From: Deltaproteobacteria bacterium
GTDB lineage: Bacteria; Desulfobacterota; Anaeroferrophillalia; Anaeroferrophillales; Tharpellaceae
Assembly: GCA_030595135.1 (NCBI GenBank)
Contig: JAUVDU010000108.1
Span: forward strand, 1-6,142
Direction: 5' to 3'
DNA length: 6,142 nucleotides
Of the stretch, positions 3,639-4,159 are shown in pieces (position 1 is the stretch's first letter; each line of letters opens with the position of its first letter). Under the pieces are notes generated by a model, which was not told where the DNA came from, did not search any database, and saw nothing but the letters and a program-made list of their open reading frames with translations. Made by a program: the position numbers and the translations under genes.

Positions 3639-4159
3639 AGAGTGCATTAAAGGGCGACGGATTTCTGGTTACCAATCTTGAGAGTCTGGTTAACTGGGGA
3701 CGTAAGAGCTCAATCTGGCCTTGTACCTTTGGTTTGGCCTGATGCGCCTTGGAGATGATGGCTACTAGTTTAAGTAGTTACGATATCGCCCGCTTCGGTT
3801 CCGAGGTTTTTCGGCCTTCGCCGCGTCAGTCCGATCTAATGATAGTCGCCGGTACCCTGACCAAGAAAATGTCGGTTATGGTTCAGCGCATTTATGAGCA
3901 GATGGCTGAACCTCGCTGGGTCATCGCGATGGGGGCCTGTTCCTCCTGCGGCGGCGTTTTTCAGAGTTATTCGGTTGTCCAGGGAGTCGATCAGATAATT
4001 CCCGTGGATGTCTATGTTCCGGGGTGTCCTCCGCGCCCGGAGGCCCTGCTTGCTGCAATCATGAAATTGCAGGATAAGATCATGCAGGACAAGTTTACGG
4101 ATCGGCCGGACTATGTGGAGCCTTCAAGCAGCAAATCTGATATTGTAAGTTTGTGTTAG
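3629..4159 (+). CDS. nuoB: NADH-quinone oxidoreductase subunit B with in-frame TGA, probable selenoprotein
   Basis: PSST/Nqo6 homologue that carries cluster N2, the last Fe-S cluster before quinone. Reading codon 38 (TGA 3740-3742) as a residue gives 176 residues without a break. The N-terminal part ends WPCTFGLA; then come the TGA, C39 and ALEMM. After this the protein continues at consensus quality: ARFGSEVFRPSPRQ (54-67), GAC104SSC107GG and VPGC133PPRPE. NuoB normally reads GLACC-x-[IL]EMM, so TGA replaces the first of the tandem cysteines. Spacing from residue 38 to 104 (66) and from 104 to 133 (29) equals that of the Thermus Nqo6 ligands (45, 111, 140). The ATG overlaps the nuoA end by 10 nt and has a strong ribosome binding site. 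Selenocysteine is the favoured reading; a nonsense mutation or a base error remains possible. C32 and C107 are unusual extra cysteines. Confidence 0.9.
3740..3742 (+). other. In-frame TGA, probable selenocysteine codon of nuoB
   Basis: Codon 38 of nuoB is TGA where the family has an invariant cysteine ligand of cluster N2. Exact replacement of a conserved Cys by TGA, with flanking homology in the same frame on both sides, is the classical signature of a selenocysteine site. TGA differs from the Cys codons TGT and TGC by one base, so a third-position error would look the same. Confidence 0.75.
3759..3780 (+). other. SECIS-like stem-loop downstream of the nuoB TGA
   Basis: UGGCUACU (3759-3766) pairs with AGUAGUUA (3773-3780) over 8 bp, including two G-U wobbles. 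The loop AGUUUA (3767-3772) has G at its second position. The loop begins 24 nt after the TGA. This fits the known pattern of bacterial SECIS elements: within the coding region shortly after UGA, a small apical loop, and G among the first two loop bases. The stem is only moderately stable, and coding constraints overlap it. Weak lower pairing of GAU (3754-3756) with AUC (3785-3787) is possible. Confidence 0.5.

Follow-up and report, generated by a model that had tools for sequence, protein, structure and literature searches.

Complex I, a key enzyme of respiration, passes its electrons to quinone from the last of its iron-sulfur clusters, N2. Within its 20 kDa subunit, known as NuoB, Nqo6 or PSST, the N2 ligands of the Thermus protein are Cys45, Cys46, Cys111 and Cys140 of Nqo6. 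In Yarrowia, according to the excerpted text of PMC8042128, N2 is held by four cysteines, the tandem pair included, and the first tandem cysteine is singled out as the most mobile and as a neighbour of a quinone-ligating tyrosine. The gene described here resembles this subunit in full-length homology, in its nuoA-B-C-D gene order and in three of the four ligand cysteines, which are equally spaced, and differs from it in that one N2 ligand codon is TGA.

Several described selenoproteins invite comparison. Bacterial selenoproteins of the FdhA type likewise combine an in-frame TGA with cysteine homologues, but their selenocysteine (Sec) binds Mo or W (PMC13188914), whereas in NuoB it would bind an Fe-S cluster. 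Other selenoproteins of anaerobic electron transfer also have Fe-S clusters (PMC13188914), but they are soluble enzymes, unrelated to NuoB and not subunits of the proton pump. The Sargasso Sea selenoprotein NqrE bears a similar name (NADH:ubiquinone oxidoreductase subunit E) and is represented by a single metagenomic sequence that contains an in-frame TGA (PMC1088965), but it belongs to COG2209/PF02508, of the NqrE family, with the motif TXXU, and not to complex I.

NuoB is absent from Table 1 of the 2026 selenoprotein inventory, which spans 119 families or subfamilies and in which the NqrE family (PF02508) is the sole entry for an NADH:ubiquinone oxidoreductase (PMC13188914). No NCBIfam model is named selenoprotein NuoB, and no title on a Sec NuoB appears among the matches listed from the open-access full-text literature, supplements aside. 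Such a protein is also unmentioned in the excerpted texts, supplements aside, of PMC12013277, PMC9312934, PMC1794560, PMC8318568, PMC5109826, PMC5736913, PMC2702500 and PMC6288185. Sec NuoB may possibly have stayed unlisted because gene callers that read TGA as a stop would truncate nuoB.

The nuoB frame and the N2 ligand positions

The window, meaning the whole stretch of DNA analysed, is the 6,142-nt contig JAUVDU010000108.1 (GCA_030595135.1), part of a metagenome-assembled genome (MAG) that is 70.5% complete and consists of 415 contigs. The 5' end of nuoB overlaps the 3' end of nuoA (3282..3638), and the gene contains the following features.

3629..4159, plus strand: nuoB with in-frame TGA; ATG at 3629, TAG at 4157-4159, 176 codons plus stop
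3740..3742, plus strand: TGA at codon 38, probable selenocysteine, aligned to Cys45 of Thermus Nqo6
3743..3745, plus strand: Cys39, second residue of the tandem pair of N2 ligands, by alignment to Nqo6 residue 46
3760..3779, plus strand: putative SECIS hairpin, formed by 3760-3766 and 3773-3779 around the loop AGTTTA (3767-3772), which starts 24 nt past the TGA
3938..3940, plus strand: Cys104, third N2 ligand position, by alignment to Nqo6 residue 111
4025..4027, plus strand: Cys133, fourth N2 ligand position, by alignment to Nqo6 residue 140

The initial annotation had described nuoB as one frame interrupted by TGA at codon 38 alone, and both this description and its coordinates proved right. 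It had further equated the TGA codon with the first of the two tandem cysteines and had found C104 and C133 spaced as in Thermus; the alignment to Nqo6 (PDB 2fug chain 6) bears out both points, being free of gaps at a constant offset of 7 (U38=45, C39=46, C104=111, C133=140), with C104 and C133 at +66 and +95 from the TGA. The protein passed the NCBIfam models of the NuoB family, NF005012 with 248.5 bits (cut-off 116) and TIGR01957 with 238.8 bits (cut-off 142.7). With the TGA read as Sec or Cys, NuoB contains the Nqo6-spaced tandem pair together with two more ligand cysteines. Its best named relatives, from Candidatus Tharpella sp. and Ca. Tharpella aukensis, are 95% identical. Among 38 distinct nuoB genes with this TGA (Sec genes), the other three ligand cysteines are kept in all 38; the ligand spacing is the same as in JAUVDU010000108.1 in 29 and one residue shorter in 9 (families f29, f65 and f79).

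Recurrence of the TGA, selenocysteine machinery and the downstream hairpin

Within the order, 16 of 22 genomes have a nuoB orthologue with 80-99% identity (one, in G008, ends at a contig edge), and codon 38 is TGA in 15 of them and TGC in one (G007). The phylum sample comprised 395 genomes, assigned to Desulfobacterota/Thermodesulfobacteriota by inference from record titles. In it the pattern F-G-L-A-TGA-C-A matched 36 genomes and the reversed pattern 0. NuoB accounted for 29 of the 30 placed loci and for the remaining six matches, the match at L152 (G305) being rejected as not NuoB. Sec-type nuoB was counted in 35 of the 395 genomes, spanning 17 genera and 10 families; with G005, G008, G013 and G021 from the order search, TGA at codon 38 occurs in 39 genomes, which is far beyond chance against a reversed pattern found in 0/395.

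NuoB was matched in 342 of the 395 phylum genomes, and among the matches listed in-frame TGA was confined to the pattern-positive genomes and G008. Two phyla were sampled for TGA NuoB; in Planctomycetota, the phylum of Ca. Loosdrechtia (phylum name from the record titles), the pattern matched 0 of 382 genomes and the reversed pattern 1. A tblastn search against plasmids gave distant matches, the best at 60%. Loci L201 and L202 duplicate places in G184 and G102. The nuoB genes of G009, G100, G157, G309, G229 and G345 carry both the inner TGA and a terminal TGA, at which their relatives also end. Because these six genes end in TGA, the codon is still a stop and has not simply been reassigned.

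The initial annotation had proposed searching the genome for selenocysteine machinery. In the MAG, SelA is complete, a tRNA-Sec with a TCA anticodon scores above the Rfam cut-off, and SelB is represented by its N-terminal 104 residues, which run up to the edge of a contig and score 163 bits against 96 for the next family. SelD was not found in the 70.5% complete MAG; across the order it scored above cut-off in 18 of 22 genomes, with an in-frame TGA in 17 of these (e.g. L206, L207). The presence of SelA is barely informative, because 355 of the 395 phylum genomes have it above cut-off; it was unmatched in two MAGs with Sec NuoB (G002 and G015), the sample holding 36 Sec-NuoB genomes.

In Sec genes, a stem begins about 17-18 nt, and its loop about 24 nt, 3' of the TGA. 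The plain fold of 3735-3800 is unexceptional (z -1.14), and hairpin strength was therefore scored against synonymous codon shuffles that preserve the protein. On this measure, the 38 Sec genes displayed a mean z of -1.65, with rank <0.05 in 18, whereas 82 Cys genes displayed a mean z of -0.19, with rank <0.05 in 4 (Mann-Whitney p 3e-10, kinship ignored). As a group, Sec genes have a stronger hairpin after the TGA than codon choice gives, while Cys genes do not. The hairpin of JAUVDU010000108.1 is by itself not significant (z -1.36, rank 0.10; SECIS-like rule p 0.08), and those of family f2 do not rise above chance level (z -0.39 to +0.5). A SECIS-like rule score of at least 5 was reached by 34 of 38 Sec genes and 39 of 89 Cys genes and was better than shuffles at p 0.05 in only 8 of the 38 and 4 of the 89, respectively, the best stem lying elsewhere in some genes. 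Over 7 phylogenetically independent pairs, an average of 3.8 pointed in the expected direction and 0.1 in the opposite one, an underpowered comparison with a median p of 0.125; two other cut-offs gave a median p of 0.25.

Covariation was assessed in eight distinct sequences picked by eye as sharing a common register; the family of JAUVDU010000108.1 is not among them. This set is paired in 91% of cells, and its covariation score was higher than that of any of 500 shuffles or of any slid version. Changes on both sides occurred in 3 of 7 pairs, a count that was reached by 28 of 500 shuffles and by the +3 slide and is tilted towards the chosen register because the sequences were picked by eye for it. 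The outermost pair varies among G-C, C-G, U-A and U-G, one pair is unpaired in 5 of the 8 sequences, and the stem in the family of JAUVDU010000108.1 is one base off this register. No Rfam family was found in 3600-3900 at E up to 10.

Competing readings and the proposed role of selenium

The nuoB TGA is very probably decoded as selenocysteine, and selenium would then be one of the four N2 ligands; insertion of Sec into NuoB is strongly inferred. This was the reading of codon 38 given by the initial annotation, and it gains support from the machinery in the genome or order, from the relatives with TGA and from the finding of no second nuoB in the 70.5% complete MAG. Mechanistically, SelB would bring Sec-tRNA to the UGA, aided by the hairpin, and full-length NuoB would bind N2 via a single selenolate alongside three thiolates.

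A flaw in sequencing or assembly, or decay of nuoB into a pseudogene, might be suspected in a gene taken from one fragmented MAG of 415 contigs, but this explanation is already refuted by recurrence in 39 genomes and 10 families and deserves virtually no credence. A search of relatives for the TGA had been suggested at the outset, and since the same TGA stands in 15 of the 16 orthologues within the order, as well as in 35 of the 395 genomes of the phylum, it is not a read error. Downstream of the TGA, dN is 0.014-0.132 while dS is 0.56-1.98 or saturated (13 comparisons with the JAUVDU010000108.1 gene), indicating strong purifying selection on this part of nuoB, which also speaks against a pseudogene. 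It is highly improbable, too, that the TGA ends translation and a downstream start, for example TTG 3749, yields the second piece of a split NuoB. The frame from TTG 3749 is open to the gene end, yet the resulting piece would contain neither of the tandem N2 ligands, Cys relatives have an unbroken frame at codon 38, and the hairpin stands at the site in Sec genes and not in Cys genes. Alternatively, the TGA could act as a regulated stop, nuoB being made with selenium and a second, cysteine-containing complex I substituting without it. This arrangement is judged distinctly unlikely, although a second NuoB (61-64% identity) occurs in 15 of 22 order genomes, 11 of which are among the 15 with Sec NuoB, with Cys at codon 38 in 12 of 12 copies read (L034-L036, L039-L047), and although the excerpted text of PMC6288185 describes Sec and Cys forms of FdhF switched by selenium. 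Against it, the matches listed include no other NuoB for 15 of 36 Sec-NuoB genomes, 8 of these 15 being at least 95% complete, and the second NuoB, where present, is distant. The initial annotation had named truncated NuoB in proteomic data, together with a second, intact nuoB in use, as grounds for giving up the Sec reading; such a second copy does exist in those 15 of 22 order genomes, while the MAG itself and the 15 Sec-NuoB genomes just mentioned, on the matches listed, go without it.

How selenocysteine and cysteine alternate at codon 38 was followed in a tree of 127 NuoB sequences (38 Sec and 89 with Cys at this position) calculated with codon 38 excluded. It requires at least 10 Sec/Cys changes (bootstrap 9-11), label shuffles averaging 33, and 7 changes are forced by well-supported branches; with so few columns, gain is not separable from loss. 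Sec might accordingly be inserted and ligate N2, and still be a neutral swap for Cys, gained and lost by drift in Sec-decoding lineages. The roughly 10 changes across the 127 genes favour this account, as do three loci, L056 (with the L169 gene order described below), L057 and L059 (FdhA directly after nuoD), which decode Sec without using it in NuoB, because their FdhA carries TGA and their NuoB has Cys. Yet the TGA demands a hairpin and dedicated factors and is nevertheless retained in 15 of 16 order members; the neutral account is possible but on the unlikely side.

With codon 38 decoded as selenocysteine, selenium would occupy the N2 ligand that is most labile, because the first tandem cysteine is the more mobile one in Yarrowia. 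Its role would most likely be to ease re-formation of the ligand, to resist irreversible oxidation and to shift the N2 potential, with no new reaction. A further proposal, made tentatively and judged rather unlikely, is that of a recurrent adaptation, in which the selenolate would leave and rejoin N2 as electrons reach quinone and would serve as a reversible, oxidation-proof redox and proton switch.

If NuoB is a selenoprotein, a core respiratory subunit joins the selenoprotein list, relatives with Sec or Cys and a similar operon make the role of this N2 ligand directly testable, and selenium provides a handle on N2 (77Se ENDOR, Se K-edge). If the adaptive proposal is true, these lineages provide a natural experiment that bears on the part in coupling for which the tandem cysteines have been proposed.

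Operon context

The genes around nuoB in the window were compared with the corresponding locus (L169) of a congener, G016.

435-2651, minus strand: multihaem c-type cytochrome, 738 aa, 16 CXXCH motifs
3282..3638, plus strand: nuoA; the L169 congener matches Pfam Oxidored_q4
4182..4685, plus strand: nuoC; the L169 congener matches Pfam Complex1_30kDa
4746..5933, plus strand: nuoD, start provisional; the L169 congener matches Pfam Complex1_49kDa
6011..6142, plus strand: first part of the following gene, truncated at the contig edge, resembling by eye the start of the L169 NuoF/GltD-like fusion

In L169, nuoA-B-C-D are followed by the NuoF/GltD-like fusion, an FdhA/NuoG-like gene with TGA, and nuoH-I-J-K. 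In the fusion, a GltD-like NAD(P)H oxidoreductase is joined to the Fe-S region of NuoF. The FdhA/NuoG-like gene, which follows it within L169:10088-14817, has its in-frame TGA at an FdhF-type site and scores 872.8 bits as formate dehydrogenase alpha (cut-off 666.25), making it a second likely selenoprotein of the same complex. Because the fusion and the FdhA-like gene stand in the nuo operon, formate or NAD(P)H could feed complex I. Congeners with a second nuoB have two complex I types in one cell.

Many of the nuo operons include an FdhA/NuoG-like gene that carries TGA at the FdhF-type site. A tie between Sec NuoB and a formate-dehydrogenase-type operon was considered and rejected: in L056 such an operon accompanies Cys NuoB, and the fusion and FdhA are absent after nuoD in the stretches of L159-L163 and L165 (families f65, f29 and f79). 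The f29 loci L162 and L163 have the unusual order nuoB-D-I-A-C-H.

For Ca. Tharpella from Auka vent sediments, the excerpted text of PMC9213671 presents complex I as the electron entry to the quinone pool, with a final acceptor that is not obvious; the string 'selen' is absent from the main text of that paper. The multihaem cytochrome at 435-2651, with NapC/NirT-, cytochrome c7- and c3-like matches, is divergent from the nuo operon and also adjoins it in L169; a link to the final electron acceptor of Ca. Tharpella is possible. A promoter scan of JAUVDU010000108.1 remained at chance level. Past the end of the cytochrome gene lie two strong terminator-like hairpins, at 366-405 (17 pairs) and 221-242 (9 pairs).
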